Counted from the first letter of the stretch, positions 35,630-61,536 are shown. The stretch: DNA of 64,000 bases from Siphonodentalium dalli (GCA_032622095.1 CP136065.1:23114134-23178133), one strand, 5' to 3'. Notes: a model not told the origin generated them from the letters alone. Numbers and translations are program-made.

Positions 35630-35684
35630 ATGTTTGGAGGATCAAAACCTACTGGTTTTGGAACAACATTTGGTGGCAACACCT
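35630..35684 (+). CDS. Nup98-like exon 1, start codon
   Basis: ATG at 35630 opens MFGGSKPTGFGTTFGGNT, the expected Nup98 N-terminus with FG dipeptides, and ends in phase 1 at donor gtgagt. An acceptor-like tgatattttcag ending at 35585 suggests that this exon has about 44 bases of 5' UTR preceded by a UTR intron. A 38-bp minisatellite ends only about 90 bp upstream of the ATG. Confidence 0.88.
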
Positions 35685-36216
35685 GTGAGTATAATTGTTA
35701 GACATAATATGGACTTTTTCAGGTTCGTGGAACTGATAAGTTAGAACTTAGGTGTTATGCCAACTTCGGAATGTAACATTGCCAAAAATCTCAAGCAAAT
35801 CAACCATACCACTCCATAGAAAACATTGTCTGAACTACGCTCAATTGTAAATATTTACATCTGGATTCAGGATGTAATTATCGGCGATAAACTAACACCA
35901 ATGTTTTCACCATTGATAATCTTTGCATTTAATATATATATCAGAATGTTTGTTGTCAATTTTGATTAATATTCGTAAAAAATAACTACTTTGAGCTGAG
36001 CAAGAGTATTCTCCAGTTCCATTTGATCACCCTACCAGAGTGTTTCACATCACTTTAATAATTAAGTAGTAAACTGAACATTTGTTCTGAAAATCACTTG
36101 CTTTGGCTTATTATCAGTTGATGATAATGGTACCGGTGGGAATCAATAACTGATTTTTTATACAGAAATGGCTGGACCCTCAGAGCTGAAAATTTGTACA
36201 TATGGCTAATTTGACT

Positions 36217-36264
<48 letters not shown>

Positions 36265-39200
36265 GTGGTATCTTATTAGATAGGTTCCATTTACATCAGA
36301 TGATTTAAAAGGGCACTAATAATTAATTTAATGAAATAATTAATTATATACCCATAATTTTTGCAATCTGGTCGGTGAAAATTGAAACACGGGGATAAAC
36401 TGACCCGTAGAGTGTAATGAGATAGATGCTGTTGACCTCAGACGACTTAAAGGGGCTGACTCATATTGGCCGAGTTATTAAACATCTTTTTACTTTGAAT
36501 ATAAGCTTTCACAGGTGAGTAAGTAGTACCTTTCCAGTGACACTATTGATCAAGTTCAATATATGGTAATGGCTACTTCATTGGAATAACTTGTTGAATA
36601 CGGGGGTATACCTTAGTCCTATCTGGGACAGGCCCATCTCTAGTTAAATTTGTAATGTGGATTAACCACATGAAGATACAGGTCAAGTCCGAATTTGGGT
36701 TTGGTCCACCCATTTTTGCGAGAGTTATGGTCCTTGTCGACTTAAAATTTATCAATTATTTTGTTAACTTTACTTTTAGTTATCTGACTGTTTTTAAATT
36801 CAAATGAATCTCTTGATATTTGGTACGTGGTTCAAATTTCAGAAGACAAAGGTCATGTTTGAATTTGGTCACGGTTCGATGAATTTTGAAAGAGTATTTA
36901 AAAAAAAAGCTATCCTTACTAAAAAGCCACCTTTTCAGGGGACACGTGGTCTGCGATCTTTTATTTATTTGGTCTTAAAACAATAATTTCAAGTATAAAA
37001 ATTACTAACTGTCATCCAATTATGCGAACCCCTGCCACTCAGTCAGTATATTTTCACCATCATAAATTAATATCTTGCATTTGGTTTGATGTTGTTACTT
37101 AATAAATCATTTACTTCTTATTGGACACTCTTATTCTGGATAATTTTAAATGAATTCTCATGTTATGGTTTGTTATTTTTCAGCCACATTTGGTTCAACT
37201 ACTCCTTTTGGAGCAACTTCTACAAGTAAGTGTCCTAAATTTGACTTTTTACCATCAAAGCAGATCAAAGATAAAGTTTTGAGTCATAAATGTCACAACC
37301 TGGTAAAATTGACTCTTTGAACGTCGAAGAAAATTAACATAACATCTATCTAGAGCGTCTATTTGCAAATACTTGGAAACTTACCTAATAATTTTAATTA
37401 AATACACCCACCCACTTTGTCCGGGCATATATCTGAGCAATAGGTTATTGGATCTGAATAAAATGTTGTATGGTTATTCTTTCTGGATGATAACTTTAGT
37501 AAGTCTGAACTGAATGGAACAAAATTTGGTGTGTGAGTTTACTAGCCCAAAATACAAGTCAAGTTCGAATTTGGGTTCTGCACCGCCAATTTTCACCAGA
37601 GTTATGGCCCTTTGATGGAATTAACATTAACACTGGCGTATTTTGCCACGACCTAGCAATGATCTTGTTGTGTTATATCCAATCAATCAAAAAGAAATAC
37701 AAAATACATCCTTATGGGAGTCCAGAAGTCCTTGAGAACACTCTTTGTTTATACATTATGCACACCCATATTCTTTCTACTTATACAGGTAGTAATTTGT
37801 TCGGCAATACATCATTCACTGCACAGACCCCAGCATCAACTGGCGGCCTATTTGGATCTACACAGACTAATACAGGAGGAGGCCTCTTTGGACAGCAAAG
37901 TCAGGCTCAACCGACCAACACATTTGGTGGATCTTCTGGATTCTGTAAGTGCTGGATTAACCCTTTCATGATGGGAGCAGCGCTGGTGCATCATTAAATG
38001 CCCTATGGGAGACTCCCATATATAAGATCATGCACTGGCTTACATGGTCAAATAAAATATTGTCCAGCCAATGCTTTCTCTTATATATGCGAGGAGCTCT
38101 ATGGGCGACTCACATATATAAGAGAATGCATTGGCACAGGGTTTTCGTAAAATTTCAGGAAGCTCCAGTCATGAAAGGTTTAAAATATTGTTCTCTCTTT
38201 CCTCTGCCCTCTCTTTCCAATGAATGATTTGCTTAGTGCATTTGATCCACTATACAAGGATTTTAGTAACCTATTTTACCTATTAATTTTCTTGTTTTCC
38301 TTAATTATATTCAGAATTTAACTAGACTGTTTGTAATGCTATATTTTTAAGGTACCATGGAAAAATGGCAGTTAAAAGATTTATTACTATCTCATTTTTC
38401 AATCACTTGATAATAATTGGAGCAATAAATAGTTATATATATAGTTATATTTTTTTTAGCTAAATTCTTCTCTCTCACTTTCGCTGATTTTATTTTAATT
38501 TTGTGCCTTGACTTGTATTAAACACATCAGCAATACCAAAATATATATATTGTATAGTGATTCTAAGGCCACACAAAGCCAATGTTTAGGTTCTCGGGCA
38601 ATATGTTTCTAAAATGCATGTGGGCATGAGATTTTTGTTTTGTGTGTGATACAACAATAGTGCGATACTACAAACAACGGGTCTGTGATTTACGAGATAA
38701 ATTGATTTATATATCGCTGTATACAAATTCTTATTGAAGAGAGCTTTGTACTTATTGGGGTACTAGATTGTTCCATTAATCTTTAACTGTCCAATCTACA
38801 TTATATTTTATTACTGTTTTATTTAAGCAATTTTGATTTGAATTAATGCACATCCATGGTCATTTGTTTACAATTACGATACCATGCAAAACATTGTTTT
38901 TAATTACGAAACGAACTCTGTTGGACAACATGCACATGGTCTCAATAACAGGTGATTTGACATCCGGGTTAAATGAATAGATCGGCGATATTATGAAACA
39001 TTAATGTTAGGATGACACGGGCACGTGATAAGTGCATTTACTATTGCACAACCCCTTTGATTATTTCCTTTTTAACTCACTCCACATTCTGTTACTAAAA
39101 CGAAAACATACGTTCTTACCGATTTTGCTTTCACAGATGAATTATCGACCGTCATATTGTCACAAGTTTTCTGTGTGACTTAAAAATCATTGGGGGGGGG

Positions 39201-42200
39201 GGGGGTGTTTTGGGAGCATGGGGACCTAAACATTGACTTTGTGTGACCTACAATTTCAAGATATAAATATGCTTAATAACAATCTTCAACATGTCCACTA
39301 AAAATTACTTCATTGGTATAAATTATGCTACTTGAATAATCCTTGAATGATGAACTATAACTTTCTTGTCATTTCCAGCTTTTGGAGCCACCGCTAACAC
39401 TTCGGGAGGATTGTTTGGCCAGACGAATACTACTACCACCAGTGGAGGATTGTTTTCCACCCCTAACAACAATGCATTCGGAAACAAGACACCAGGATTT
39501 AGTGGTTAGTGTTAGTTGAATCAGCATCGTAATACAGTTCTAATTTATCCTTTCTTTACTAAATACTCATTGATGAGTAGTTCTCGTAGGAAATGATCAG
39601 ATAATAAGTTCAACAAACGGCCATAACCAATGAAAGGTATCCTTATGTACTTATATTTTTATCTTATCCATCTGTCTAATTTAGTAAAGGGCTCAATCAA
39701 AGCACATTTATCATGCGGAATGGGAAATACACCATGGACGAATTACTTTGCGTTAAGTGTGTGATGTCATGGAATGATCAATATTAACTGGACCATTTTT
39801 GCCCACCATTTATCAAAAGACAATTGAAGATCAGGATTGTTGTCAGAATATATACATTGAAAAATGATAAGATTGAGTGATATCAGCGGCTGGGAGCTTA
39901 TGTTCAATCATGTCAATCCTTCACTCGGCTCACTCCATTGTCATGTATGTCATGTCTAATAGACAGAATAATAAATTAGTTTCGATGATTACATTACATA
40001 ATTCACTCGGGTCGCCAGTCATATTGGTAAAACCCTTGTTTGCCCCGCTCACTCGGGTTTTACCAGGCCCAGCTCCCCTCGTGAATTATTTAATGTAATC
40101 ATCGAAACCCATTGATTACTCACTATATAATAAATTGTTTTTAATGTTTTAACAGGTTTCGGCTCTGCAGCCACAACAACTACAGCGAGTGGAGGAGGTA
40201 TTTTTGGAGGGCAAGCATCTGGTACTAACTTGTTTGGTGCTACACCAGCTGCTAACACAGGTATGAGACATCCCGCACAATGTGCATATTATCCTGGCGT
40301 AAAAAAAGATAGATAGCCTTTTCTTCGACTAAATCAGCTTGTTATTATCATTTCGTATTGTGCTGTTTTTAGTTGTATGTTCCTCTTCTACAACCAAGCC
40401 TGGTTTAGTGTGTCTGTCATGGGAGACATAGACTCAGACTGAAGTTCCCAAATGGTGAATATTGTGATGTACGCCCATTGGGAACCTCGATTATGCAATA
40501 TGTCATCTGCCAATTTGGGGATATAGAGAAACTAAACTGAAAAAGAAATAGAATCTATGTGAAGAAGTTTCTATAGAAATTTGATAATAAAGAAACATTC
40601 CAGAGAAGATGAGTCCTAAGCAGAATGAGGTACTCAGAGGGAGAATTTAGTGATGCTAGCCCGCTCTGTGGGATAGCTTCACTAAATTCACCCTCTGGGA
40701 ACCTCATTCTGCATATAACAGGCACACTAAAATCAAGCTTGTCTACAACAGACTTTAAATAATTAGTGACATGTTCATCTAAAATCTCCAGTAATGGTAA
40801 TAAAATGTCACAACTGTGTAACCAGTTTATTTTATAGAAGAAATGATATTTGTTCTGAACTCCAGTGGTAATTTAAAGTGAAAAATATATTTTATTGCAA
40901 TGTTTTCATAATTTCAAAAGATTCAAGTCTTGAAATAGTGTGCCTGTCATTTGCAGAATGAGGTCCCCAGAGGGTGAATTTAGTGATGCTACCCCACATA
41001 GCAGGCTAGCATCACCAAATTAACCCTCTGGGAACCTCATTCTGCTGAGATGTAAGCAGAATGAGGTCCCCAGAGGGTGAATTTGGTGATGCTAGCTTGC
41101 TATGCGGGTAGCATCACTAAATTCACCCTCTGGGGACCTCATTCTGCAAATGACAGACACCCTATTTCAAGGCTTGAAAAGATTACAAACTCATTTAATC
41201 GGCAATCGGTGCAAGGCTCTATTTGACAATCGGCTCATCACTAGAAGTGACCATGGCTTATTCCGTTGTTCTAGGAAACATGAAAGCATTATGATTTGTC
41301 GCCTTGAAAGAAATTGTATCGTGTAAAATAAATCGTTAGACTTCCAGTATAAGAACTGTTTAACTGACCAGGGATGATGCCACTAACAATTTATAAAGCT
41401 CATAACAGCAAGCAGTCAAAATTGGTCACAGCAATAAGCAACGGCGTGACAACATGTGGATTCTAACATGATAGAGCATTAAATGTGCCATGGGATGTTT
41501 TTCCTAATTTTGAGGACTACATCAATGGGATATTGTAATAAAATCATATCGCATGTGTCCGCATGTTTGTTACTATTGTACGCGTTCAATTTTCAGAGAG
41601 TTGAAACTTGTCAGCACATAACAAATATTGCGATTAGAATTCAGAACACTTCTGGTCTTTGTAAATGTAAACAAACACTGAGGAAAGGTGAGGTTATTTC
41701 TGATTATGAGGAACATTCAAGGAGAACGATCTTTGACTTAAAACAGCACAATACCATCTGATAATAACCTGCACTCGATCGTTTTGAATTTATTAACCCT
41801 GTGTTAGATGAATGAAGTTCCCTCATTCAATTATTAACTATTTTTATACAATATGGATTGTCTCAATTAGTTATAAATGTATACTTTGGAATGGTATATT
41901 ATTCATCTGGATTGGTTTTTCCCTCTGGGTACCTCATTCTGCTTAGGCCTCATCTTCTCTTGAAATTTTCTTTGTTATCAAATTTCTATAGAAACATCTT
42001 CACATAGATTCTAGTTCTTTTTTAGTTTAGTTTCTCTATATCCCCAAATTGGCAGACGACATAATGCATAATGGAGGTTTCCAATGGGCGTACATCACAG
42101 TATTCATAATTTGGGAACTTAAATCTGAGTATATGTCTCCCAGAGCAGATGAAGCCATTCAGGATGAGGTCCCAAGAGGGTGAATTTGGTGATGCTAGCC

Positions 42201-45200
42201 TGCTATGCGGGATAGCATCACTAAATTCACCATCTGGGGACCTCATTCTGCAAATGACAGGCACAATAAACTCAGGCTTGATTTGTATCGGTGTTCTGAT
42301 AACATCAGCAGACATAGAAACACCCTATGGATTTCCATTCATTCATACCTAATTGGGGTGGTATGCTTTTACATTCTATTAGTTCAGGAGACATAACATA
42401 TATGTATCTTTTTTTTTTACCCACGTAACAAGTTATGGGCGAGGGGGCTATATATGAATCAGCTAGTTCGTCTGTCTGTCCATTGTGGTGTCTGTCTGTC
42501 CATAGACGCAACTTTGTCCAAGCTTTCATTCCTTCATTTTTCTGTAAATTTCGGTGGAGTTATCCCCCTTTGTCGACTTAGATAATGTTCTCAAGATGCC
42601 TAATTTTGTCCAAGCTTTTATTCCTACATTTTTCAGTCAATTGTTTTAAAACTTGGCACAGATATTTAGTACCACGTGAAACTGTGCACCTGCCATTATG
42701 GGGTCTGTCTGACGTTTTGTGGAGTTATCCCCCTTTTTCGACTAAGACAATTTTCTCAGGATGCCTAATTTTGTCCGAGCTTGTATTGCTACATTTCTCA
42801 GTCCATTTAAAAAAATATTTAGTACCTCATGAACCTGTGCACCTGCGATTATGAGGTCCTTCCAACTTTTTTTGTGGAGTTATTGCTCCATACATCTATG
42901 TATGCATCCAACTTACCTTTCCAGACCATAACTGGAGTGTGTAAAACATTTGTGCCACTCACTTCTATGGGGGGGGGGGGTATCCATAGTCCCATTGGGC
43001 TAGCCCACCTCTAGTTTGTTTTGTTCTTTAGCTATATTGGGAAGTTAACCCTTTCATGACTGAAGCTTCCTGAATTTCTGCAAAAACCCTGTGCCACTGC
43101 ATATATAAGAGAATGGATTGGCCTAACAAATTTTATATTACTTTTTATAACTGTTAAAAAATGAAAAAAATTATAAAAACATTGGTAAAGAATGTAAGAA
43201 ATAATGATAAAAAAATTCTAAAAATTGTTGAAGAATGTAAGAAAAATTATAAAAAAAAATATATAAAGAATGTAAGAAAATAATTATAAAAAATGATAAA
43301 ATTCTTCAAGAATGTAAGAAAAAAATTTATAAATGTCTTTTAAAGAATGTAAGAAGAATTGATAAAAATTTGTTGGGCCAATGCATTCTGAGCCATTCTC
43401 TTAATTATGCGAGGCGACCTATGGTTGACTCGCATATATAAGACAATACATTGGCACAGGGTCTTTAATGTTGCGCCAGCACAGCTCCCGTCATCAAATG
43501 GTTAATCCTGTATTTAGTTCTACATTTATAATAACAATCACGAGATAAGAAAACTGTTCACCTGAATTTCATTCATTTGACTCAATTCTACATATAGATA
43601 ATTAATTTCAGTATTCGGAAGTGGACCTACTGCCCAAGCCCAATCAGGAACTATCATTAAGTTTGCTCCACCTGCCGGACAAGATTCTATGGTGAAGAAT
43701 GGTGTATCCCAACAGATAAACACAAAACATCAATGTATTACTGCGATGAAGGAGTATGAAAATAAGTCTCTAGAGGTAAGACATTTAGTTGCATATCAAT
43801 GTAACTATAGTACTAATAATAACTTGAAGATACTGTTGGCCTTCATGGTGGTTATTGCTGTTAAAATGGTCACATCCATTTAAACTGCCATAAACAGAAA
43901 GAATATTAAAATATAGGAAGATTTTCTTCTTATACCAATCATAAATATCACATAAATAGTATGTTATTGTTTAATTAGTTCACTGTGTTTGAAACAAAAT
44001 AAGGAATTTACGATGATATTATTGTAACTCATAAGTTGTAGGTTGCGCATGTTCTAAATACCATATACATTATGTCACACACCAGATAAGGCATATTTAC
44101 AATCATGGTAAAATGCTCACGCATCTAAATAAGGAGATTACACAATAGTAAGTCATCTCAATAGCACAGAGAGCGTGTTCAACATTATATCATTCCTTTC
44201 TTGTTTCTTCATGTGTATTATACATTTTTGTTGCTACGTGGCGACTGCCTTTTGAGTTTATAATAAATCCTATGAAGGATAAAACGTTTACATCGAATTT
44301 TGCCCCGAACCATCTTGAAGGAGGTTTAATCTTGTGTTTTGTTGTGCGACCACGTGGTTGTTGTTTACGCAGAAGATTCGCAACAATATCCGATGATTTT
44401 CGGAAATCTATGGATAACTCTAACTCTGCTGATAAACAAAGCAAAACAATCGAACCTAATATTCTGTGACACAGTGTGTTTTGTGGATGGTATCACATGC
44501 ATATTATCATTATACTGTTATTTCTAAAATTAACCTACAACAAAGGCCATCTGTGCCTTTAACAATACAATCTAGTTTCGAAATCTCCAATTGCAACAAC
44601 ATAAATGACAATATATGATCAACAAAATCTAAATTTATGTTTTACTTGCTATGGCTAGTGTTGAAATGACTAGGGAATTTTCATAGTTGACGGGCCCTAG
44701 TCAACTAGACTACAACAACCATATACAATAATGGACATTAGTGTGCAAAACATTGAGCTCTAATATAAAGGTGTCGTGTGTGAAAAGTGACTTGTGGACA
44801 TAGAACCAGGGTTGGTTATTTTTTTTATTATTTTTAAATAAATAAAAACAAATTTATTTATTTGATTTAAATCAGATTTTGTTTATTTAAATAAAAAAAA
44901 TAGATTTTTTTTCTAACTGAAATGAAAATATGTAATTGTGCAATGTTTTTGATACATGAAGGTTCTAAAAGGTGTTGCCTATTTGATCCAATGCTGGATT
45001 AATCAGATTTCTATTATTATATTATTTTTTATTATATTTTGTATACCTATTAAACTCAAATATCATGGTACAGATATAGCGACCATGTATTTCGTGCATA
45101 CACTTAGGTCTATGTGAGTTCCAATGTTGTGATATCTGGATAGGTACACCTGTGCTTAAACATTTACTAATAAATTTAGTAAAGTTTAGCCGAAAATTGA

Positions 45201-48200
45201 ATATATTATCAATCGTGTTTGCTCTTCGGTGACTTGAGGACATAATCACACCAATCCAGTATATCGAGTATAGACATTAGACAACTAGAGTAGTTTAGAT
45301 GGTAGAGTATATGGTATAGTTACTCGGTTAGCATTTACATGTACGACCATCAGAAAAGGAAAGAAAATTCTACATTTTAATGATCAGTGCTTAATCTGAG
45401 TGGTGTTACATATAATACTAACATTGCTAAGCTGAACAGGCCATTTTTGAAGCAGTGATCAACGTACCATGCAGCATGCATGTAGTTTCTATACTGTTGA
45501 CAATTACTGTACAATTGCATATCTCTTATCCAATTTTGTATATTGTTTAATCATACTCATGTTATAGTTTACAAAAACCTTGTTAGATATTGCAGTTCTT
45601 GACTTTTTGCCATCATTTCAATTTTTTTTGATTTGTGTAGAGTTACAACCAATGATTTAAATGACTTGATTTAAATTGGCCAACCCTGCATAGAACATGA
45701 AGTAGATGACTTCATTTAATAAAATTATTAGCTGATCCTCATGCTTTTGTTATGCCCCCGACTTGAAGTCGGCGGGTATATAGTCGACGTCTCCGTCCGA
45801 AACACGTCCGTACGTACGTACGTCTGGACATCCGTCCGTACAAACATTTTGCCTTATTGTTCAGCAACCGCTGGGCGGATTTAGCTGATATTTGGTATGG
45901 TGATAGAGCAGCATGGGGAAACAGCTACATGCATAGCGCGGGTTTCGTCCACCCATTTTCACCAGAGTTATGGCCCTTTTTTTACTTAGAAAATTCAATT
46001 TTGTCCTACCGTACAAACATTTTGCATTATTGTTCAGCAACCGCTGGGCAGATTTAGCTGATATTTGGTATGGTGATAGGGCAGCATGGGGGAACAGCTA
46101 CATGCATAGCGTGGGTTTCGTCCACCCATTTTCACCAGAGTTATGGCCCTTTTTTAATTAGAAAATTCAATTTTTCTCTTGTTTTTTGGGTATAGCGTGA
46201 ACTTTGGTGTTACGATTGCAAATCCCGTATTTTTGTGGATCAGTTATATGAAAATAAATGTCAAGTGCGAATTTGGGTATGATCTGATGATTTTTGCCAG
46301 AGTTATGGCCCTTTTTTCAACTTAGAAATCCGTCCGTACGTCCGTCCATACAAACATTTTGCATTATTGTTCAGCAACCGCTTGGCAGATTTAGCTGTTA
46401 TTTGGTATGGTGATAGAGCAGCATGGGGGAACAGCTACATGCATAGCGCGGGTTTTGTCCACCCATTTTCACCAGAGTTATGGCCCTTTTTTTACTTAGA
46501 AAATTCTATTTTGTCCGTCCGTACAAACATTTTGCATTATTGTTCAGCAACCGCTGGGCAGATTTAGCTGATATTTGGTATGGTGATAGAGCAGCATGGG
46601 GGAACAGCTACATGCATAGCGCGGGTTTCGTCAACCCATTTTCACCAGAGTTATGGCCCTTTTTTGACTTAGAAAATTCAATTTTGTCCGTCCGTACAAA
46701 CATTTTGCATTATTGTTCAGCAACCGCTGGGCAGATTTAGCTGATATTTGGTATGGTGATACCGTCCATGCTTAATCCGAATTGCTACGGTCGGAGGCAA
46801 ATGCCACGCGATAGCGTACCTCTTGTTACAATTAGTAATTGTGTACTAAATTACTAATTGTAACTCCAGACAATTGCAAGGCACTGGATAAAATTCAGAA
46901 TCACTTATTATAATGGGGAGGTATCAGTTTATAAAAACAATAACAGTGAATAGTCAGGTGCACTAAAAATATATGATGTGTTAGGTAATCCATGTCATAT
47001 ACTGGTAGTACAATGCCATTTTTGTATAAGATTAAATGAGTTTATATGCAAAACAGTTCCCTCTAGATTTTCTGGTTTGTCCATGCTTACTATGTGCAGA
47101 CAAAAATAAATGTAAAAAATAAAAGCCTTCCTCCCTCACTGATTTGAAGAAAAAATAATTGCCCTAGAACCAAAACCCTTTTTTTTTGGCATTAAAGAGG
47201 ATTTTTTAAGAACAGTCACCTGCAATCTTTTTGTTGGTCACAGAGAGATTTTATCTTCTATATTTTTCTCTATTTATCAGGAACTGAGAGTGGAGGACTA
47301 TCTGGCAAACAGAAAGACTAAGCAGGCACAGGTGGCGACGGCTGGTGGATTGTTCAGCACCCCTGCTGCTACGACTGCATCTGGATTTACCTTCGGCGGC
47401 CAACAACAACAACAACAGAACAAAACTAGCTTTGGCGCAGGAGGTATATATGATAAATAAATCACTCTTGTTTTGATTAACCCTTTACCCAACAAACCAG
47501 CCAAAACCGGCCAAATAAAGCTTCAACAGCCTAAAATATCTTCGGTCTGTCTCAATAGAACCATACAAATATGGATATCATTGGAACCGGCTCCTTGACC
47601 ACATTGTGATAGTTACAGTTATGCCCTGTGCCAATGCATTCTCTTATATATGCGAGTCGACCATAGGTCGCCTCGCATATATAAGAGAATGCATTGGCCT
47701 AAAAAAAATCTTTTTTTAACACTTTTTACCATTTGTTCTTACATTCTTTAACAATTTTATAATGTTTAATGTGTTAAGCCAATGCATTCTCTTATATATG
47801 CGAGGCGACCTATGGTCGACTCGCATATATAAGAGAATGCATTGGCACAGGGCCCTTCTGTTGGGTAAAGGTTTAAAGTTTATGCAGTCATAACCAAAAA
47901 GTTTGAAATCCAATTTTATGACACGCATTTATAGTACATGTTTTATCTTCTAAGTTTTCAGTTAAAACTCAAACTTAATAAAAACAAGTTAATTATAATT
48001 TAATTAATATATTTCCATAAAATTAAGGCTTGGAAACAAACACCTGTTAACACTTTCACTGCCGACTACGAGTTATCTCGTACTTTTTGCATGTAATTGA
48101 ATGGGCATCAGCAGTGAACGTGTTAACCCTTCCACTACTCTAGCTTCCTGCAATTTTGCCAAATCCATGTGCCAGTGCATTCTGTTATTTATGGGAGTCT

Positions 48201-51200
48201 CCCATCCGGCGCCTCGCATATATAAGAGAACACATTGGCCTAACAATATTTACATTGACCGTGTAAGCCAGTGCATTCTCTTATATATGCGATTATAGGG
48301 AGACTCGCATATATAAGAGAATGCACTGGCACAGGGTATTTAATGCTGCACCAGCACAGCTCCCGTCACGAAAAGGGTTAAAATCAACACTCTAAAAGAA
48401 TTTTTTGATTTTTCAGGACTTTTTGGTGCTCAAACCACAGCATCTAACACAGGTATATTCAACCAGCCAGCTCAGGCGACAGGAGGTCTGTTTGGAGGAC
48501 AAACTAAATCTCTGTTCGGAACTCCTACAACGACGACTCAACAAACAGGATTTGGGTTTGGAGCTTCTACTGCAAACACAGGAACATCATTATTTGGTCA
48601 AAACCAGAACAAGGTAATATTCAAATTCAGTCTGGAGTAAAACTACATACCCACATATTTCAACATAGCGCAATTTGATATAATTTGGAGGAATACTACA
48701 AGCCTTATGAGAAATGAAAAGTTGGCGGGATACGTAGACCAAACAGATTTATATGTAATTGGTTATTGAAAATTATTCTATTTCAGCCTCTATTTGGTAC
48801 AGCAACGACCCAATCAGCAGGCCTATTTGGGGCTGCAAGTTCTGCCACTACCTTTGGTACCGGCGTCGGTGGATTTGGTACAAGCACTACAAGTGTAAGA
48901 TATTTTCATTGTATTATTTTATGCTCAGATGCATCTACATATCGTTAGAGACACAAGGCCAAAGAAAAACATATCTGTTGTTGGGGTTTCACTACTGACC
49001 CTATTTTAACCCTGCGGTGGTGCAGCATTAAAGATCCTGTGCCAGTGTATTCTCTCCCATAGGGAGATATAAGAGAATGCACTGGCTTACAAGGTCAAGG
49101 TAAATATTGTTAGGGCAATGCATTCTCTTATTTATATATGCGAGGCTCCAACTCGCATATATAGGAGAATGCATTGGCACAAGGTTTTTCGAAAATTTCA
49201 CGAAGCTCATCATGGAAATTGTTTTTCAATGTTTTCAAAAAAATATTTATAATTTTTTAGTAAAATCCTTCAATGGGTTGATTTCTCAGTCAAAGCATTG
49301 CGATTATTACAGTTTATACCAAGACAAACAGAATTAATATAAATAAAATAAAATATAAGACATGAAAAGTGTCAAAATAAAAATGTGTCAAAATAAAAAA
49401 TTTAAGCTTTCCTACCTACCCTAATTTGTTCTGAATTGTAACCCTGAGGCCATTTTTTTTATTTATTTGGTTTATGGATAATTTTTTCCAGATGTTTGGG
49501 TTGGCATGTTGGAATAAAACAAAAAATAAAATAGGCATTTCAGATTTTTTCCTCCCGCTGATTATCTAACGGAGTCGGTAGGCAAAAAAAAAAAAACAGA
49601 AGTGTCAGTAGGGAGCGTTCGGTTCGGTTCGGTTCGTTGCCGAGACGAGAATTAATTTGCAATGCATTAAACTTCACGCTTGTTAAACTATATATACACA
49701 TTATTTTATTTGCTACCCAGTACCCATCCTGTTTGGAGTCAGTAGGAAACAAAATAAGCGATGATCAATATTTAAAAAAGTTTTTTGATTTTTAAGGTCT
49801 AAATAATCTCTCCAAATTAATAAAACTTTGTTTCTGTGTCTGTCATTTGTTTATATGATCTGAACATTCCTTCAAAGAATGTAAAGACCTTTCAATTAAA
49901 TTTGTTTATAACTGAATGAAATTATCTATTCAGTGATTAAAAGAGTTAAAATTAGGGAGAAGAGGACAAAATGGCTACCATTTGCTGTAGAATTAAATTA
50001 TTGTGCATTAAGTTGAGAACAGTTTTGGCATTGATTTAATTTTTACTCGCTCAAATCAGCTCATGTTTAGAATATGATTTGTCATTGCTCCATAGTTAAT
50101 AGAAGACATCCATTACAGGCTAGCGGAGGGTTGTTTGGCAACCAAGCTAAACCAGCAGGATTCGGAACAGCTCCAATATCATCCACAGGATTCACTTTTG
50201 GCCAGAACACAGGAAACAGTCTGTTTGCTCGTCCATTCACGGCAAATACTCAACCTCCTGCTTTCGGAGGTAAGCTTTTTTCTATATTTTTTTAATTTCC
50301 TTTTATTTATGCCATCCAAATTTGAAAAAACAAATTTTACTTATCTTTCCAAACATTTTCTTTGTCAAGGATATTAGATTTGTTTTTGCCATTGTATACA
50401 TCAAATAAAGTCACTTTTGATGTTGCCTTGCCCAGTTCTTTATATCTCAAATGTGTGTTGATGTTGTTGAACAAGCCTCAATTTGTTTTGCATAAAAGAG
50501 TGTTACCAAGAGACAGCTTCATAACATAGAGCATAATCCATGATCATGGTATATAAACAAAATTTATATTCTTCATATTGTGTGTTTTGTAAATAACAAT
50601 ATCCTATCACATCCCAATCTTAGAACTAAGAACATAATGAATTGAATAGTAAACTCATTACAATGTAGCCTATAAGTAAAGTTTGTTTTTCATTTCATGT
50701 TGTTACTGTGACTAATCTGTCTATTATTTATGTTATCAATTCCTAACAAATAGGTGTCGGAGTCTATTTTAATCGGTGTATGGCCTAAAAATAGGTGTGT
50801 TCCCCTAACTTGATTGTGACAAATGCTCATTGGATGTCCAACTGCAGGTGTGAAAATTGCGATGTTATGGTTATAACTACTATAATATGACCACCACAGT
50901 GAAAAACAAAACAAAAATGTCTTCTTGATTTAGCAATTGGTGAATTGTTATGGATGTCAGGGGAACACACTGAAGATAATTTTTTAGGCTTAAGCATGCT
51001 GGAGTAGTGCATTTGTTATGAGGCCAAACAAAACTATACCTGTGTTTCTATAAAGTTATACAAAAATTGCGGACAGACAGGAGGCATTAAAATTTAATTT
51101 ATAATTCACTTTATTTTAATTCATTAAAATAATTATCCTGGTGTCAGCAATATGCAGCTATGTGAAGGCTAGTTTTGTTTTATTGAATTGAATGCTAGAT

Positions 51201-54200
51201 TTTAATAAAAGAGTGCTCTCTTTAGCATGTTGCAATTAAACCAAATATTTATTTTGTAAAAAATTAATAATATCTTTTAAGCTCAGATCTATAAGGATAT
51301 TTTGGTTAACAGAAACACGGGTGTATTTTAATTTGGTCTTTGCTTTAGTATCGCTGCATGTTTCTTTTGCATGAATTTCTTTATTTCATGATCATTTCTT
51401 TTCATCATTGGAAAGGTTCACATGGCTCTTTCCTATGAATATGTATTCTCTTGTTTGTAGCGCCTTGTCGACTCTGTAAGAAGCCAGTGTTCAATAGCTA
51501 CAAACCGTGTGGCCACCGTGTACTGTGCAGAGCATGCTATGACAAGACGTCGGCTCAGAAGTGCATTCAGTGTGGACTCTGGGTCGAGGACATCAAAGAT
51601 GATTGGGACACTGCATGTATCAACTGTGACAATGAGGCAGAGATTATATTCCCCTGTTGTACTCACATGGTTCTATGTGAAAAGTGTGCTGAATGTGCCG
51701 TCACTTGTCCTGTATGTGATATTTCAATGATGCATTCATTTGTACCATTTGGTAATACTCATCCAGCAAACGAAGCTCCTGTTCCGCGATACGGGGAAGT
51801 TCAGCATCAGGCAGCTCTTGCCCCTCCTGCCATTCAAGGCCTTAGCTATGGTGGGTTTGGTTCGGGTTCCTCTGCTCAACAGTCTTCTCAAGCGACCGGA
51901 GGTGGTTTTGGATCCTTCGCTTCAAATAACCAAAATCAGCAAGGATTTGGGACAGCTTCATTCGGACAACAGACTGCTCAAGGTCAAGGTCTTTTTGGTT
52001 CCTCGTCAGCACAGTCTGCTGCCACAGCAACTCAACAAAGTTCAGGGAGCTTCGGTGGAGGCTCTCTGTTTGGAGGACAGCCGTCTGCTAATCAGACTTC
52101 ATTTGGTTCTGCTAATTCAAACTCCAGTAATTGTGGATATTACAAGAAATCTGATGTTAGAAAGGGAAATTATCAAATGACTTTTAGACCTGCACAAGCA
52201 AATAATACAGCTCCAAGTTTATTTGGGAACGCTTCTGTTCAGAGTCATCCTACCCAGCAGCCTGTTGCCCAGCAGCCCTTATTTGGAAAACAAGAAGAGG
52301 GTGCCCCAGCAATGGGTTTCGGCATTGGTGGACCCGCTGTTACGTCTACAAGTACATCCAACACTAGCACCTTATTAGGCAAACAAGAACAGACCGCCCC
52401 AGCAATGGGCTTCACCTTAGGAGGACCTTCTGTTACATCTACAAATACATCTAACTCCAGCTCCTTATTCGGTAAACAAGAACAGAGTGCCCCAGCGACG
52501 GGCTTCAGCTTAGGAAGACCTGCTGTTACATCTACAAATACATCTAACTCCAGCTCCTTATTCGGTAAACAAGAACAGAGTGCCCCAGCGACGGGCTTCA
52601 GCTTAGGAAGACCTGCTGTTACATCTACAAATACATCTAACTCCAGCTCCTTATTCGGTAAACAAGAACAGACCGCCCCAGCGACGGGCTTCAGCTTAGG
52701 AGGACCTGCTGTTACATCTACAAATACATCTAACTCCAGCTCCTTATTCGGTAAACAAGAACAGACCGCCCCAGCGACTGGCTTCAGCTTAGGAAGACCT
52801 GCTGTTACATCTACAAATACATCTAACTCCAGCTCCTTATTCGGTAAACAAGAACAGACCGCCCCAGCGACGGGCTTCACCTTAGGAGGACCTGCTGTTA
52901 CATCTACAAATACATCTAACTCCAGCTCCTTATTCGGTAAACAAGAACAGACCGCCCCAGTGATAGGCTTCACCCTTGGAGGACCTGCTGTTACGTCTAC
53001 AAATACATCTAACTCTAGCACGTTATTAAAACAAGATGAGAGCGCCCCAGCAACTGGCTTCGGTTTTGGAAGTTCTGCCATTACATCAACAAGTACATCT
53101 AACACTACATCTACAAATATGTCTAACTCCAGCACATTATTCGGCAAAACAAAGAGTACTGGCTTATTTGAAAAACAAAAAAAGCTCGCCCCAACATCAG
53201 GCTTCACCCTTGGAGGACCTGCTGTTGCATCTACAAATACATCTAATTCTATCACTTTATTAAAACAAGATGAGAGCGCCCCAGCAACGGGCTTCGGTTT
53301 TGGAAGTTCCGCCGTTACATCTACAAATACATCTAACACTAGCACCTTATTAAAACAAGAAAAGAGCACCCCAGCAACAGGCTTTACCTTGGGAGGACCC
53401 GCTGTTACCTATACAAATACATCTAACTCCAGCTCCTTATTCGGTAAACAAGAACAGAGCGCCCCAGCAACAGGCTTTACCTTGGGAGAACCCGCTGTTA
53501 CCTATACAAATACATCTAACTCCAGCTCCTTATTCGGTAAACAAGAACAGAGTGCCCCAGTGACAGGCTTCACCCTTGGAGGACCTGCTGTTACATCTAC
53601 AAATACATCTAACTCCAGCACGTTATTAAAACAAGATGAAAGCGCCCCAGCAACTGGCTTCGGTTTTGGAAGTTCCGCCATTACATCAACAAGTACATCT
53701 AACACTACATCTACAAATATTTCTAACTCCAGCACATTATTCGGCAAAACAAAGAGTACTGGCTTATTTGAAAAACAAAAAAAGCTCACCCCAACATCAG
53801 GCTTCACCCTTGGAGGACCTGCTGTTGCATCTACAAATACATCTAATTCTATCACTTTATTAAAACAAGATGAAAGCTCCCCAGCAACGGGCTTCGGTTT
53901 TGGAAGTTCCGCCGTTACATCTACAAATACATCTAACACTAGCACCTTATTAAAACAAGAAAAGAGCACCCCAGCAACAGGCTTTACCTTGGGACAACCC
54001 GCTGTTACCTATACAAATACATCTAACTCCAGCTCCTTATTCGGTAAACAAGAACAGAGCGCCCCAGCAACAGGCTTTACCTTGGGAGGACCCGCTGTTA
54101 CCTATACAAATACATCTAACTCCAGCTCCTTATTCGGTAAACAAGAACAGAGCGCCCCAGCAACGGGCTTTACCTTGGGAGAACCCGCTGTTACCTATAC

Positions 54201-54951
54201 AAATACATCTAACTCCAGCTCCTTATTCGGTAAACAAGAACAGAGCGCCCCAGCAACGGGCTTTACCTTTGGAGGACCCGCTGTTACATCTACAAATACA
54301 TTTAACTCCAGCAGTTTATTTGGCAAACAAGAAGAGATCACCCCACCAACGAGCTTTACCTTTGGAGGACCTGCTGTTACATCTACAAATACATTTAACT
54401 CCAGCAGTTTATTTGGAAAAGAAGATCTCGACCCAGCAACGGGCTTGTCCCTGGGAGGACATGCACTTACGTATAATAATACTGAAAAGAGTCAAGGTTT
54501 AACTTTAGAGGCTGAACAAAAGAAGCAGGAAAGTGGGTTTTTCCAGAACAAGAGATCCACCAAAAATGACGATAAGAGTGTTCCCTTAATTGGTTCTGGA
54601 TTGGATAACGTGGAGATGCTCCCTATGGTAATGGCCTTGCGAAAAATCGAACAAGATACATCCGGAAGTACTCCTGGAACACTCCCTATTGCAAGTGACT
54701 CAAATAATGTTGGTGGTAAAGGGGTGTCCTCATTATTTTGCGGCCAGCAATCGCAATCTAGCACAGCTACCAAATTCAAATTTCGAATGAGTAATCTTGA
54801 TTCACCTAAAGAACCTGGAAACGAAAATGTCGGCACAATGGTATCGGACACCAAAGCACAGACATCATCATCTTTGTTTAATCAAAGTATAACTTCACAA
54901 GAAGGAAATGCTTCTTATAATCCATTCTGGATTTCACCAGAGAAAAAATAG
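35630..54951 (+). CDS. NUP98-like: Nup98-like FG nucleoporin fused to tandem RING fingers and a long FG-type repeat tail (11 exons)
   Basis: Eleven exons join without a frame break into 1585 codons plus stop. Residues 1-161 are FG/GLFG repeats starting MFGGSKPTGFGTTFGG; about 173-228 is the GLEBS segment that binds Gle2/Rae1; about 229-422 are more GLFG repeats. Residues 425-508 carry two consecutive cysteine/histidine RING patterns; about 520-695 are FG-rich; about 696-1425 are 23 copies of a ~31-residue repeat; 1426-1585 is a unique tail. Nup98 normally forms the pore permeability barrier, is cleaved from Nup96 by an autoproteolytic domain, and anchors through it. No such domain or Nup96 part is visible, while RING pairs usually recruit ubiquitin E2 enzymes. 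A role as a pore-linked or mobile ubiquitin ligase is inference. It could also be one isoform of an ordinary Nup98-Nup96 gene whose other exons lie past 64000. Confidence 0.85.
36218..36263. repeat. Uninterrupted G homopolymer of about 46
   Basis: A single run of G in Nup98-like intron 1. It can form G-quadruplexes and its length is likely polymorphic or mis-assembled. Shorter G/C runs are at 28824, 31360, 39194, 42971 and 56803. Confidence 0.95.
37184..37225 (+). CDS. Nup98-like exon 2
   Basis: Fourteen codons in phase 1 to 1, acceptor ttatttttcag and donor gtaagt, encoding STFGSTTPFGATST. Confidence 0.88.
37789..37944 (+). CDS. Nup98-like exon 3, GLFG repeats
   Basis: Phase 1 to 1, acceptor cttatacag and donor gtaagt. 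It contains NLFGN, GGLFGST and GGGLFGQQ, classical GLFG motifs. A TTAA hairpin element begins 12 bp beyond the donor. Confidence 0.92.
37957..38183. mobile_element. TTAA-flanked hairpin MITE, family B, in Nup98-like intron 3
   Basis: Ends are TTAACCCTTTCATGATGG and CATGAAAGGTTTAA, with two hairpins. It starts 12 bp after the exon 3 donor. Confidence 0.82.
39379..39504 (+). CDS. Nup98-like exon 4, GLFG repeats
   Basis: Phase 1 to 1, acceptor tcatttccag and donor gttagt. It encodes SFGATANTSGGLFGQT and later NNNAFGNKTPGF, the latter similar to the NAFAQNKPTGFG segment of vertebrate Nup98. Confidence 0.92.
39979..40108. mobile_element. Palindromic MITE in Nup98-like intron 4
   Basis: Arms GTTTCGATGATTACATTACA and TAATGTAATCATCGAAAC surround an inner inverted pair GGTAAAACCC/GGGTTTTACC. 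It ends 47 bp before exon 5. Confidence 0.8.
40156..40260 (+). CDS. Nup98-like exon 5, FG repeats before GLEBS
   Basis: Phase 1 to 1, acceptor gttttaacag and donor gtatga. It encodes GFGSAATTTTASGGGIFGG and NLFGATPAANT, directly preceding the GLEBS exon as in other Nup98 genes. Confidence 0.92.
40394..40741. mobile_element. CAAGCCT-family MITE with 8-bp target duplication, Nup98-like intron 5
   Basis: TCTACAAC at 40386-40393 is repeated exactly at 40742-40749. Part of the left palindrome block is deleted. Confidence 0.87.
40924..41176. mobile_element. CAAGCCT palindromic MITE with 8-bp target duplication, Nup98-like intron 5
   Basis: AAAAGATT at 40916-40923 is repeated exactly at 41177-41184. 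It is the same short form as 11482-11735. Confidence 0.9.
41920..42282. mobile_element. CAAGCCT-family MITE, left end missing, Nup98-like intron 5
   Basis: It contains the AT-rich core and right palindrome and ends AATAAACTCAGGCTTG; the outer left arm is lost. Confidence 0.68.
43045..43505. mobile_element. TTAA-flanked hairpin MITE, family B, long version, in Nup98-like intron 5
   Basis: Ends are TTAACCCTTTCATGACTG and TCATCAAATGGTTAA. The middle is expanded by repeats of AAGAATGTAAGAAAAA-type sequence, about seven imperfect copies. It ends 106 bp before the GLEBS exon. Confidence 0.75.
43612..43775 (+). CDS. Nup98-like exon 6, GLEBS (Gle2/Rae1-binding) motif
   Basis: Phase 1 to 0, acceptor taatttcag and donor gtaaga. 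The peptide runs VFGSGPTAQAQSGTIIKF, then MVKNGVSQQIN and TKHQCITAMKEYENKSLE. The last part is nearly identical to vertebrate Nup98 (TKHQCITAMKEYESKSLE), the hairpin that inserts into the Gle2/Rae1 beta-propeller. Conservation of this segment shows the gene is under selection as a Rae1 partner. Confidence 0.96.
44807..45688. mobile_element. Non-autonomous hAT-like element, 882 bp, Nup98-like intron 6
   Basis: CATAGAAC at 44799-44806 is repeated exactly at 45689-45696. Ends are CAGGGTTGG and CCAACCCTG, followed inward by AT-rich GATTTAAAT-type subterminal repeats. No transposase-like frame was recognised. Confidence 0.9.
45841..46766. repeat. 173-bp satellite-like repeat, five copies, Nup98-like intron 6
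   Basis: Copies start CAAACATTTTGC at 45841, 46014, 46351, 46524 and 46697; spacing is exactly 173 bp within each run. Each has TTCAGCAACCGCTGG and ACCAGAGTTATGGCCCTTTT. Related sequence with GAGTTATGCCCCTTTTTCGA recurs at 37555-37620 and 59690-60290. Confidence 0.9.
47281..47443 (+). CDS. Nup98-like exon 7, GLEBS end and FG repeats
   Basis: Phase 0 to 1, acceptor ctatttatcag and donor gtatat. It opens ELRVEDYLANRK, the end of the GLEBS hairpin (vertebrate ELRLEDYQANRK), then GGLFSTP, GFTFGG, a six-Gln run and SFGAG. A TTAA hairpin element begins about 34 bp after the donor. Confidence 0.95.
47477..47876. mobile_element. TTAA-flanked hairpin MITE, family A, in Nup98-like intron 7
   Basis: Same ends and two hairpins as the copy at 16297, in the reverse orientation. 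One base of the right end is changed (AAAGGTTTAA). It starts about 34 bp after the exon 7 donor. Confidence 0.87.
48123..48381. mobile_element. TTAA-flanked hairpin MITE, family B, in Nup98-like intron 7
   Basis: Ends are TTAACCCTTCCACTAC and CACGAAAAGGGTTAA, with two hairpins. It ends 35 bp before exon 8, so it must be close to that exon's branch point. Confidence 0.8.
48417..48613 (+). CDS. Nup98-like exon 8, GLFG repeats
   Basis: Phase 1 to 0, acceptor tgatttttcag and donor gtaata. It contains GLFGAQ, GGLFGGQ, KSLFGTP, TGFGFGAS and TSLFGQNQNK. A TTAA hairpin element ends about 36 bp before the acceptor. Confidence 0.93.
48787..48894 (+). CDS. Nup98-like exon 9, GLFG repeats
   Basis: Phase 0 to 0, acceptor ttctatttcag and donor gtaaga. 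It encodes PLFGTATTQSAGLFGAA, TTFGTG and GGFGTSTTS. Confidence 0.93.
49006..49215. mobile_element. TTAA hairpin MITE, family B, degraded right end, in Nup98-like intron 9
   Basis: The left end is TTAACCCTGCGGTGGTGCAG; hairpin arms CAATGCATTCTCTTAT and their complement follow. The right end (CACGAAGCTCATCATGG) has lost the final GGGTTAA. Confidence 0.65.
50119..50269 (+). CDS. Nup98-like exon 10, last canonical Nup98 exon
   Basis: Phase 0 to 1, acceptor tccattacag and donor gtaagc. ASGGLFGNQAKPAGFG is followed by GFTFGQNTGNSLFARPF, matching the NSLFSKPF-type block of vertebrate Nup98. It ends PPAFG plus one base, which joins the RING exon as Ala-Pro-Cys. Confidence 0.93.
51461..54951 (+). CDS. 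Nup98-like exon 11: tandem RING fingers, FG spacer, 31-residue repeat array, tail, stop
   Basis: The acceptor is tcttgtttgtag and the exon is open for 3491 bases to TAG at 54949. The phase-1 entry matches exon 10. RING-like pattern 1 uses Cys425, 428, 439, His441, Cys445, 448, 457 and 460; pattern 2 uses Cys475, 478, 489, His491, Cys495, 498, 505 and 508, with PCGHRVLCRAC and THMVLCEKC cores resembling the C-terminal RINGs of MIB- and IAP-type ligases. Then come FG motifs such as YGGFGSGSS and GQGLFGSSSAQ, the repeat array, and a tail ending YNPFWISPEKK. The FG motifs on both sides of the RINGs argue that the exon belongs with Nup98 exons rather than to a separate gene. An internal GT (51752) could end a shorter version. 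No poly(A) signal was seen close after the stop. Confidence 0.85.
51475..51726 (+). other. Tandem RING-type zinc-finger region (residues 425-508)
   Basis: Two C-x2-C / C-x-H-x3-C-x2-C / C-x2-C modules lie 14 residues apart. Module 2 reads CINCDNEAEIIFPCCTH then CEKC and CPVC, which is the RING-HC consensus including the Pro before the penultimate zinc ligand region. Module 1 has CIQC instead of CPxC, a common weakening in RINGs that help fold or dimerise rather than bind E2. All sixteen ligand positions are present, so both should bind zinc. Module 2 looks more likely to be catalytically competent. Confidence 0.85.
52279..54480 (+). repeat. Coding tandem repeat, 23 units of about 93 bp (31 residues)
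   Basis: Units follow LFGKQEQSAPATGFSLG then GPAVTSTNTSNSSS. The 93-bp spacing is exact in the early units (for example 52465 and 52558). Variants replace LFGKQEQ by LLKQDES or LLKQEKS, so some units lose the FG but keep a central GFSLG, GFTLG or GFGFG. The units are Ser/Thr/Asn-rich with one or two Lys, like nucleoporin FG spacers. The array suggests an intrinsically disordered, pore-compatible segment. Confidence 0.92.
53023..54222 (+). repeat. Exact 600-bp higher-order duplication inside the coding repeat array
   Basis: Bases 53023-53622 and 53623-54222 are two nearly identical 600-bp blocks of six units each. The blocks share the odd unit LFGKTKSTGLFEKQKK and the TYTNTSNSSS variants, and differ by scattered single substitutions. 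Because 600 is a multiple of three the frame is kept. This indicates a recent unequal exchange. Confidence 0.92.
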
Positions 54952-54973
54952 ATGTATCAAAATATTTAACTTT

Positions 54974-55384
54974 CAAGTCTGAGTTTAGTGTGCCTGTCAT
55001 TTTGAATTTAGTGACGCTGTCCTGCATAGCAGGCTAGCATCACCAAATTCACCCTCTGGGGACCTCATTCTGCATGGCCTAATCTGCTATGGGAGACATA
55101 AACTCAGATTGAAGTTCCCAAATGGTGAATATTGTAATGTACACCCATTGGGAACCTCAATTATGCAATGTTACTCCTGCCAATTTGGAAATATAGAGAA
55201 ACTTAAACTAATAAAGAAATAGAATCTATGCGAAGAAATTTCTATATATAGAAATTTGATAAGCAGAATGAGGTGCCCAGAGGCTGAATTTAGTGATGCT
55301 AGCCCGCTATGTGGGATAGCTTCACAAAATTCACCCTCTGGGCACCTCATTCTGCTAATGACAGGCACACTAAATTCAGGCTTG
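54974..55384. mobile_element. CAAGCCT-family MITE just after the Nup98-RING stop
   Basis: Flanks TTAACTTT (54966-54973) and TTAACTTA (55385-55392) match at 7 of 8 bases. It starts 22 bp after the TAG stop, so it lies in the 3' UTR or first downstream sequence. Confidence 0.82.
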
Positions 55385-55486
55385 TTAACTTAATATATTT
55401 AGCTTGTAGTTCTTGTGATTCTGTATGTACATGTATATTGGATACTTGTTTACATTGTTTTAATTTTAATCATTTCTTATTCCAAG

Positions 55487-55572
55487 TTTCCTCAAATGTA
55501 AAGCAGCTTGTGAAATTGTTAGAGGAAGATGCTAGTTTACTTACGAGATCCACCTCATATATCAGACATTAA
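55487..55572 (+). CDS. Possible alternative terminal exon of the Nup98-RING gene
   Basis: After acceptor-like tcttattccaag, a phase-1 frame encodes SSNVKQLVKLLEEDASLLTR then STSYIRH and stop, a helical, coding-looking peptide. A possible donor gtaata at 51752, right after the RINGs (HSFVPFG), also leaves phase 1, so splicing would give a short form that ends just after the RINGs. The same donor sequence is used by exon 8. A poly(A) signal follows at 55601. The AAG acceptor is non-standard and the exon lies beyond a MITE, so this is tentative. Confidence 0.35.
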
Positions 55573-55600
55573 GTGTTGTTTAAACTAACCTAAAACCACC

Positions 55601-55606
55601 AATAAA
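55601..55606 (+). terminator. Candidate polyadenylation signal AATAAA
   Basis: AATAAA lies 29 bp after the stop of the candidate terminal exon, and a second AATAAA lies at 55632. Either could serve the Nup98-RING transcript, since none was seen closer to the main stop at 54951. Confidence 0.35.
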
Positions 55607-56049
55607 TCTAATCAAATATCACAATTGTGGCAATAAACTGGTTATTCCATAGAATACATGATATTTGTTCTGAACTCACAACAGTTGTTAATTGAAAGCG
55701 GTAATTTACTGTGAAAAATATATTTAGTCACAGTGTTTATATAATTTTGAAAGATTATGAACTCAATTGACCTCACAAAGTGAACTCGTACATTTTTTTT
55801 ACAATAGAAAGCTTGGTCGCGCTTTGTAAACAAAATAGCGTGCTGAATGGAAATTAAGTTAAAAAAATGTACAACTGGAGACATCCAGTGAAGAAATGTT
55901 TTAACTACCTTGTAATGATGCCGCTTACCATTTTCAAAACCTTCTAAATGCAATAGAATATTGGAATAAAAGCGCATTGCATGCATACACATGTTCGGTT
56001 GTTTTGGGTGTGTTCAATTTGTCACCTTAAGGCCTCTTTTTTTTTATTT

Positions 56050-57638: not shown

Positions 57639-58019
57639 TTATCAAAAATAAAAGGCGTAACTATTGTCGGTGAAAATCTGAATGTTGCCGAATTGACTTT
57701 GGATGAAGTCGGGTCCTTTTGAAATCATCAATAGAATGCATGGTTACTTATAATTGCATGACATATTCTATGCCTATTTTATCATAAAGGTTTAATTTTA
57801 ATACATCATTATGACCATAGATGTCACTCTTTCCGATATATATATATGGCATCATGTATTGATTTGTAGAGTAAAATCTATTAAAATATACAAACAATTC
57901 TGCCTTGGGATCTGGGCGTAAAGTCCGATATAAGACAGTAATGGGGGATTGCGGCAGATGTAAACTAGAATCTCGCTCTACTGATTTCACTAGCTGATTT
58001 ACATTCGGTTAAACCTGGA

Positions 58020-58232
58020 TTAACCCTTTGAGTGCCAGGTCCGATTTTTGTATCGACCCATATACCCTGTGCCAATGCATTCTCTTATATATAAGAGAAT
58101 GCATTGGTCTAACATTTGTTTTTGTTTTTGTTTTTTTTTACAAATTTTAATAATTTATTCTTATATTCTTTAACAGACTTATTTTGTAGGTTTAGGGCCG
58201 ATGAGATCGGCCCCTGGCACTCAAAGGGTTAA
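58020..58232. mobile_element. TTAA-flanked hairpin MITE, family C
   Basis: Ends are TTAACCCTTTGAGTGCCAGG and its complement CCTGGCACTCAAAGGGTTAA, distinct from families A and B. It nevertheless carries the same GCCAATGCATTCTCTTATA hairpin, here reduced to its arms. A lone end of this family is at 16704-16735. Confidence 0.85.
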
Positions 58233-58462
58233 CATTTCTGAGAGATGTATGTAAATGGTGCAATCTGCTTCCTATTTGTGTTATCATTATATGATATTAC
58301 TTTGTGGTCTAACAACTGGCACACTATGTATATAAACTATGTATGCACAAAGAAAACCTTTAAGGTCATGAATTTATCATTATTTTAGGATTTCTAATTT
58401 CATTTCTTTTTTTCTGGAGGAATTATGTATACAGTGTGTACTACAAAGTTTTCTTTGGCAAT

Positions 58463-58904: not shown

Positions 58905-59289
58905 TTGGCAATGCCGATATGACAAAATTAAGAATCCATGTTGAGTTCTTGATGGAAATTAGGATCTGTTTGCCAAAATATACTACTGGTTAGAATGATT
59001 GCATGGGGTATGCACCATGAATCATACAGCATCAGTCAGTTCATTTGCATATACTTTGGTAATGAAATACTAGTATTGTTTTTTGTTGTCATAAATCCAA
59101 AAAGCTCATTGATGAAATTCAGTAAACCAAAGATGTACCTTGGACAGAAATGTTACAGCTTAATTTTATATATGGCTGTTTATATATCTGTTTTGGATTA
59201 AAATCTACATATCTATTACTATTTACATATTTTATATTTATTTATTTATTTATTAAGGCTCTGCAGTTAGAATTTTTATATGCCCTAAG

Positions 59290-60880: not shown

Positions 60881-60923
60881 GGTCTGCGACATTTTATTGC
60901 TATTGAACTTATAATTGGTTGTA

Positions 60924-61522: not shown

Positions 61523-61536
61523 TATATTAGTAACAG

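Follow-up and report, generated by a model that had tools for sequence, protein, structure and literature searches.

A tandem-RING exon within intron 10 of the single-copy Nup98–Nup96 gene of Siphonodentalium dalli, predicted to serve as an alternative terminal exon

Introduction

Nup98 is among the most conserved proteins of the nuclear pore, and the complex that it forms with Rae1 has been tied to ubiquitin pathways, both through the PHR ligases and through the degradation of securin by the APC/C. The modules to which NUP98 is fused in cancer sometimes include a PHD zinc finger. In leukemia fusions such as NUP98-KDM5A and NUP98-PHF23, the N-terminal FG/GLEBS part is joined to another C-terminal module, often a chromatin-binding one, with loss of the anchor (PMC8983581, PMC11423334), and NUP98 oncofusions give rise to nuclear condensates (PMC8983581). 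Arabidopsis HOS1 is a RING E3 ubiquitin ligase of the plant nuclear pore (PMC12626886), and in the PHR ligases (RPM-1/Highwire/MYCBP2) a RING E3 is coupled to Rae1 (PMC4806438). We found no Nup98 isoform with a catalytic-type domain described in the open-licence literature that we searched.

Here we report on a window of 64,000 nucleotides from S. dalli, in which an initial annotation had read a Nup98 fused to tandem RING zinc fingers, and on the genome in which it lies (2.23 Gb in nine contigs). All of our claims are drawn from this one genome of one species; coordinates are those of the window, and a plus sign before a number marks a position beyond the window's end, counted likewise from its first letter. 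If the RING-bearing exon is used, a Rae1-binding pore protein would be joined to a ubiquitin-ligase-like module.

Results

The RING exon lies inside a complete Nup98–Nup96 gene

The chain of ten in-phase Nup98 exons described in the initial annotation (35630–50269; Table 1) held up on inspection, with AG/GT at every border and a joined frame devoid of stops. As Nup98 requires, the N-terminal half consists of GLFG/FG repeats around the GLEBS (32 FG and 7 GLFG in 422 residues), and the GLEBS itself, also claimed before, is the sole match to PF21240 (E=1.4e-16) across the 2.2 Gb of the genome. Exon 10, whose donor score of 10.5 is the second best of 11, is the last exon common to the canonical and RING forms.

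The gene runs on past the window. Canonical exon 11, which reads ...PPAFGASTATQSLFNKPAGFG, lies outside it at +69953 to +70135 (C5:23184086-23184268) and has a phase-1 acceptor that is the top-scoring one in the intron (15.6) by a matrix made from the gene's own acceptors. Downstream follow linker exons, the autoproteolytic domain (PF04096; on the same contig and strand, 22–24 kb beyond the window end at about +85.9 to +87.9 kb, with exons at +85895, +86939 and +87767) and, again on the same strand, Nup96. Because exon 11, the linker, the autoproteolytic domain and Nup96 are all present, the RING exon sits within an intact Nup98–Nup96 gene, which is complete and single-copy and carries this exon inside its intron 10; ordinary Nup98 must therefore skip it. 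A second, RING-bearing Nup98 paralogue was ruled out by a genome search, in which the GLEBS, the autoproteolytic domain and Nup96 were each found at this locus only. The earlier reading of a Nup98 fused to tandem RINGs was thus right that a RING-bearing exon is present, with an open frame that fits onto exon 10, but it was overstated as a description of Nup98 itself, for the only Nup98 gene found also has a same-phase exon 11, the autoproteolytic domain and Nup96. Because this sole gene carries the canonical 3′ part, a RING form is possible only as an alternative isoform. The outcome that had been named as refuting the fusion, in which exon 10 is always joined to another exon further along, may hold, with the acceptor at +69953 as a concrete candidate for it.

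Table 1. Features of the Nup98 locus, in window coordinates.
Feature	Position	Strand	Remarks
Nup98 exon 1 (ATG, MFGGSKPTGFG...)	35630..35684	+	GT donor, phase 1
Nup98 exons 2–5	37184-37225, 37789-37944, 39379-39504, 40156-40260	+	GLFG/FG repeats
Nup98 exons 6–9	43612-43775, 47281-47443, 48417-48613, 48787-48894	+	GLFG/FG repeats
GLEBS (Rae1/Gle2-binding) hairpin	43612..47443	+	encoded by exons 6 and 7; PF21240 E=1.4e-16
Nup98 exon 10	50119..50269	+	donor GGAG/GTAAGC (slash marks the border), phase 1
Canonical intron 10, part within the window	50270..64000	+	full span 50270 to +69952, 19.7 kb
Predicted alternative terminal exon, encoding both RINGs, the FG region with its repeat array, and the charged tail	51461..54951	+	stop TAG 54949-54951
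RING1 (C3HC4), CRLC..CGH..CRAC..CIQC	51466..51573	+	PF13920, 24.9 bits alone
RING2 (C3HC4, IAP/IDOL-like), CINC..CTH..CEKC..CPVC	51616..51717	+	phmmer to cIAP1; AlphaFold2 model
Non-repetitive FG region (GLFG, SLFG, GFG)	51769..52272	+	PF13634
Tandem array of 90-93-base units (SSSLFGKQEQSAPATGFTLGGPAVTSTNTSN)	52273..54460	+	in-frame purifying selection
Charged C-terminal tail, FG-free, matching no known family	54475..54948	+	
AATAAA, possible polyadenylation signal	55210..55215	+	259 bases 3′ of the stop

The RING exon has a long open frame in phase with exon 10

The open frame reported earlier comprises 1163 codons within the RING exon and, together with exons 1–10, forms one frame of 1585 residues with a single terminal stop. 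The splice phases also agree as had been claimed: the exon 10 donor and the RING acceptor (after TAG) are both phase 1, and so is the exon 11 acceptor. Measured from stop to stop, the frame of the RING exon spans 1170 codons versus 176 for the longest other frame in the window outside it, and a phase-compatible YAG with an equally good pyrimidine tract occurred in only 0.5% (0.005) of random 24-base intron stretches, which places the frame beyond chance. The acceptor (TTCTCTTGTTTGTAG), with pyrimidines at 10 of 12 positions, is on par with the gene's best real acceptors and surpasses every other YAG across the 1.19 kb that separates exon 10 from the RINGs. Scored with the matrix of the gene's own acceptors, which is built on few sites (n=10), it is poor, at 0.4 versus 7.0–17.2, a level reached by 225 of the intron's 984 AGs.

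Because no in-frame ATG precedes the RINGs within the exon frame, the start must come from an upstream exon. That exon need not belong to Nup98 if the RINGs are part of an independent gene nested in intron 10, with its own promoter and a short ATG exon, whose RING-FG product would lack the Nup98 N terminus and the GLEBS. Such a gene would fit a RING exon that stands alone as a complete unit, closed by a stop and followed by an AATAAA, and a candidate private first exon does exist (ATG at 50823, MLIGCPTA, donor after 50847 with a score of 7.7). However, we consider this origin unlikely: shuffling the intron gave an equally good first exon in 49 of 500 trials (~10%), chance alone would have to account for the FG content and for the phase shared with exon 10, nucleoporin FG repeats would be improbable in an unrelated gene inside a same-strand Nup98 intron, and neither the RINGs nor the tail turned up a second time when the genome was searched at the DNA and protein levels. 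The AATAAA at 55210 means little by itself, this hexamer being common in AT-rich DNA; six further copies of AATAAA or ATTAAA occur in the 2 kb beyond 55215.

Use of the RING exon as an internal cassette spliced to exon 11 was rejected, as the sole phase-1 donor above 6 bits yields a 15-base exon. Also discarded were an origin by copying from elsewhere or as part of a repeat, given that the exon is unique and that the protein hits ranking next are FG-free RINGs, and a viral origin of the RINGs, which had no relative among viral contigs.

The repeat array shows frame-specific constraint

Copies of the 31-residue repeat had a pN/pS of 0.38 in the predicted frame versus 1.31 and 1.18 in the shifted frames. 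With each distinct change counted once, there were 13 synonymous and 16 nonsynonymous changes over 23.7 and 66 sites, respectively (Fisher p=0.011). This test speaks to the repeat array and not to the RINGs, and because the array copies are non-independent, the frame-specific constraint provides moderate evidence for translation of the RING exon. A recent duplication of a 600-base block differed at 11 synonymous and 10 nonsynonymous sites, and these differences were bunched at one end and hence carry little weight.

These results bear on the idea that the RING exon is decaying or unused, whether as the relic of an isoform once made or as a coding segment that was inserted, and is now always skipped, such that only canonical Nup98–Nup96 is made. 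The completeness of the canonical gene and the leading matrix score of the exon 11 acceptor speak for this idea, but 1163 stop-free codons, 16 intact zinc ligands and in-frame constraint over recently duplicated array copies argue against it and make it, in our judgment, very unlikely. The RING exon thus appears to be protein-coding and lies in the right intron, on the right strand and in the right phase; from its sequence, we consider that it is likely used in transcripts.

Both RINGs are complete and RING2 resembles those of IAP proteins and IDOL

All sixteen Cys/His ligands that had been reported are present, making both RINGs complete with C3HC4 spacing (in the numbering of the exon product, C2-C5-C16-H18-C22-C25-C34-C37 for RING1 and C52-C55-C66-H68-C72-C75-C82-C85 for RING2). 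On the first 212 residues of the exon, which hold both RINGs and the FG sequence that follows, PF13920 scored 32.6 bits against a curated cut-off of 27; on the single RINGs it scored 24.9 and 22.4 bits, just under that cut-off. By sequence, RING2 is nearest to cIAP1, XIAP and cIAP2 (phmmer to cIAP1, E=4.3e-05). An AlphaFold2 model made without an alignment was too poor to use (pLDDT 40), and one made with six RINGs from the same genome reached a pLDDT of 60, with ~70–80 across most of RING2 and RING1 still poor. The modeled RING2 superposed on the RINGs of cIAP2 and IDOL at 0.8–1.2 Å over 47–48 columns for the best pairs, with E-values of at least 0.0026, and the RING model had a weak structural match (E=0.21) to chain 9sob_T of an Arabidopsis nuclear pore complex model, which we take to be HOS1. 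Pfam detected no BIR domain in the RING exon, and the sequence of exons 1–10 shows nothing but FG repeats and the GLEBS.

RINGs that bind an E2 usually have Ile, Val or Leu before the second Cys and a basic linchpin, Arg or Lys, past the last Cys, although many active RINGs lack the linchpin or one of these residues. The residue before the second Cys is Leu in RING1 and Asn in RING2, and the residue after the last Cys is Gly in RING1 and Asp in RING2, with no Arg/Lys linchpin in either. RING2 retains the CPxC proline and has a Phe at +11 past the last Cys, a place at which IAP-type RINGs carry an aromatic residue that supports dimer contacts and where three IAP-like RINGs of the same genome (L007, L008 and L009) are likewise aromatic. 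An isoform that is made but is not a ligase would use its zinc fingers for dimerization or protein binding, thereby setting the valency of FG condensates, or would compete for Rae1 and so have a dominant regulatory effect. The missing hydrophobic residue of RING2, the absent linchpins and the dimer-supporting Phe are in keeping with such a role; set against these are the Leu of RING1, the CPxC proline of RING2 and the many RINGs that are active with no linchpin, and overall we regard a non-ligase role as somewhat unlikely. A Rae1-targeted ubiquitin ligase, as the initial annotation had proposed, is a plausible reading of the predicted isoform.

FG repeats resume after the RINGs

The return to FG repeats that had been noted beyond the RINGs was borne out by a match to PF13634 within the RING exon (E=2.8e-15). 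FG dipeptides number 7.6 per 100 residues in exons 1–10, 5.6 over 51769–52360 and 3.6 in the array. Beyond the RINGs, the protein is thus poorer in FG and richer in charged residues than exons 1–10, from which we expect this part to cohere less strongly than the N-terminal half does.

Discussion

With its sequence, frame, splice phases, copy number, RING ligands and frame-specific constraint established, we favor the reading, at a probability of roughly 60%, that the RING exon serves as an alternative 3′-terminal exon of the single-copy Nup98–Nup96 gene, within intron 10. In this scheme, transcripts ending at a polyadenylation site near 55210 would have exon 10 joined to 51461, and all others would have exon 10 joined to exon 11 and produce normal Nup98–Nup96, with either alternative polyadenylation or splicing past exon 10 as the switch. 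The predicted product would comprise Nup98 residues 1–422 (GLFG repeats and GLEBS), two RINGs, a second FG region that carries more charge, and finally an acidic/basic tail, and it would lack both the autoproteolytic pore-anchoring domain and Nup96.

Because the C-terminal autoproteolytic (Nucleoporin2) domain that anchors Nup98 at the pore is missing from the RING product, the earlier description of this product as pore-linked is weakened. More likely is a mobile, Rae1-bound and condensate-prone ligase or adaptor, in which the GLEBS would bind Rae1 and the FG repeats would admit the isoform to FG condensates or the pore. An IAP/IDOL-like RING module would thereby be brought to Rae1 or to FG-associated proteins, on which it would work as a ligase or else serve as a RING adaptor or dimer. 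Splicing, translation, Rae1 binding and ligase activity of the RING form are what we infer from the features of the gene. The fullest version of this proposal, a natural, alternatively spliced Nup98 isoform in whose chain the Rae1-binding FG half is followed by a tandem RING E3 plus another FG region and which ubiquitinates Rae1- or FG-associated clients as a native counterpart of the NUP98 oncofusions, is one that we advance tentatively, at less than even odds.

If the RING form is indeed spliced, evolution would have built a protein resembling a NUP98 fusion in a healthy genome and would have placed ubiquitin chemistry directly onto the Rae1–Nup98 complex. The locus would also offer a simple, testable case in which alternative polyadenylation switches a protein of the pore to a soluble, regulatory form. 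A proposed ubiquitin link between VSV-M and Rae1–Nup98 was dropped from consideration, the published effect being independent of Rae1 and Nup98.

Compared with described systems, the locus is closest in its first part to canonical animal Nup98–Nup96, with which it shares exons 1–10 bearing GLFG repeats and GLEBS and a gene that runs on to the linker, the autoproteolytic domain and Nup96; unlike the canonical protein, the predicted RING product stops before these last three and adds RINGs and a second FG region. Retention of the N-terminal FG half and loss of the pore-anchoring domain are features that the predicted isoform would have in common with the NUP98 oncofusions, but those arise by somatic translocation and have chromatin-binding partners, whereas here the exon belongs to the native gene, encodes RINGs and is followed by a resumption of FG repeats. 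The IAP proteins and IDOL (MYLIP) offer the nearest relatives of RING2, by sequence (cIAP1, XIAP and cIAP2) and by fold (cIAP2 and IDOL), with the differences that here there is no BIR or FERM domain, the RINGs are tandem and internal rather than C-terminal, and the position before Cys2 is not hydrophobic in RING2. HOS1 is a separate, ELYS-like scaffold protein of plants, with neither FG repeats nor GLEBS, and in the PHR ligases the coupling to Rae1 is done by the RAE-1-binding domain of a giant neuronal protein and not by the GLEBS of Nup98. HOS1 and the PHR–Rae1 pairing are therefore precedents for parts of the idea, and neither joins RINGs to Nup98.

Possible splice partners and repeat array of the RING exon

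Most Nup98 introns in this gene are in phase 1 (those after exons 1, 2, 3, 4, 5, 7 and 10), and the RING exon could therefore be joined in frame to several upstream Nup98 exons besides exon 10. Within its repeat array a 600-base block has been duplicated in tandem, with 21 differences between the copies, indicating that the array is still changing length by whole units.

RING domains elsewhere in the genome

A search of the animal's own genome (G000) returned, at locus L010 (C8:116918870), a RING with YPCGHKVICRRCFIKT that is similar to RING1 (47% over 31 residues, E=2.6); this locus may point to the family from which RING1 came. Two further RING-encoding loci, L007 (C9:208443808) and L009 (C1:190998510), carry a near-identical pair of exons with the appearance of a BIR plus RING IAP; such closely matching exons, here on separate chromosomes, suggest that an IAP was recently duplicated in this genome.

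Repeats in and around Nup98

Between the two GLEBS exons, intron 6 contains a tandem repeat whose 173-base unit is present five times; reading through these copies on the + strand gives long, similar peptides (PYKHFALLFSNRWADLADIWYGDRAAWGNSYMHSAGF, translation). Ahead of the coding sequence, a minisatellite of 14 38-base units (93% alike) ends 90 bases 5′ of the start codon and so falls within either the promoter or the 5′ UTR region of the gene.

Positions of repeats and dispersed elements (window numbering, continued past 64000 where marked +)
Feature	Position	Location	Seen in
Minisatellite	35000-35540	5′ of the Nup98 start codon	
173-base tandem repeat	45831-46761	Nup98 intron 6	
Duplicated 600-base block	53014-54213	RING-exon repeat array	
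Dispersed element	55000-55345	3′ flank of RING exon	ORF translations
Dispersed element, further examples among many	42020-42350, 58670-58900, +64161, +87363		ORF translations

A further repeat, with CACCCTCTGGGNACCTCATTCTGC as its core, is scattered through the introns and the RING exon's 3′ flank and frequently occurs in inverted form; its mirrored arms make it look like a member of a MITE or SINE family.
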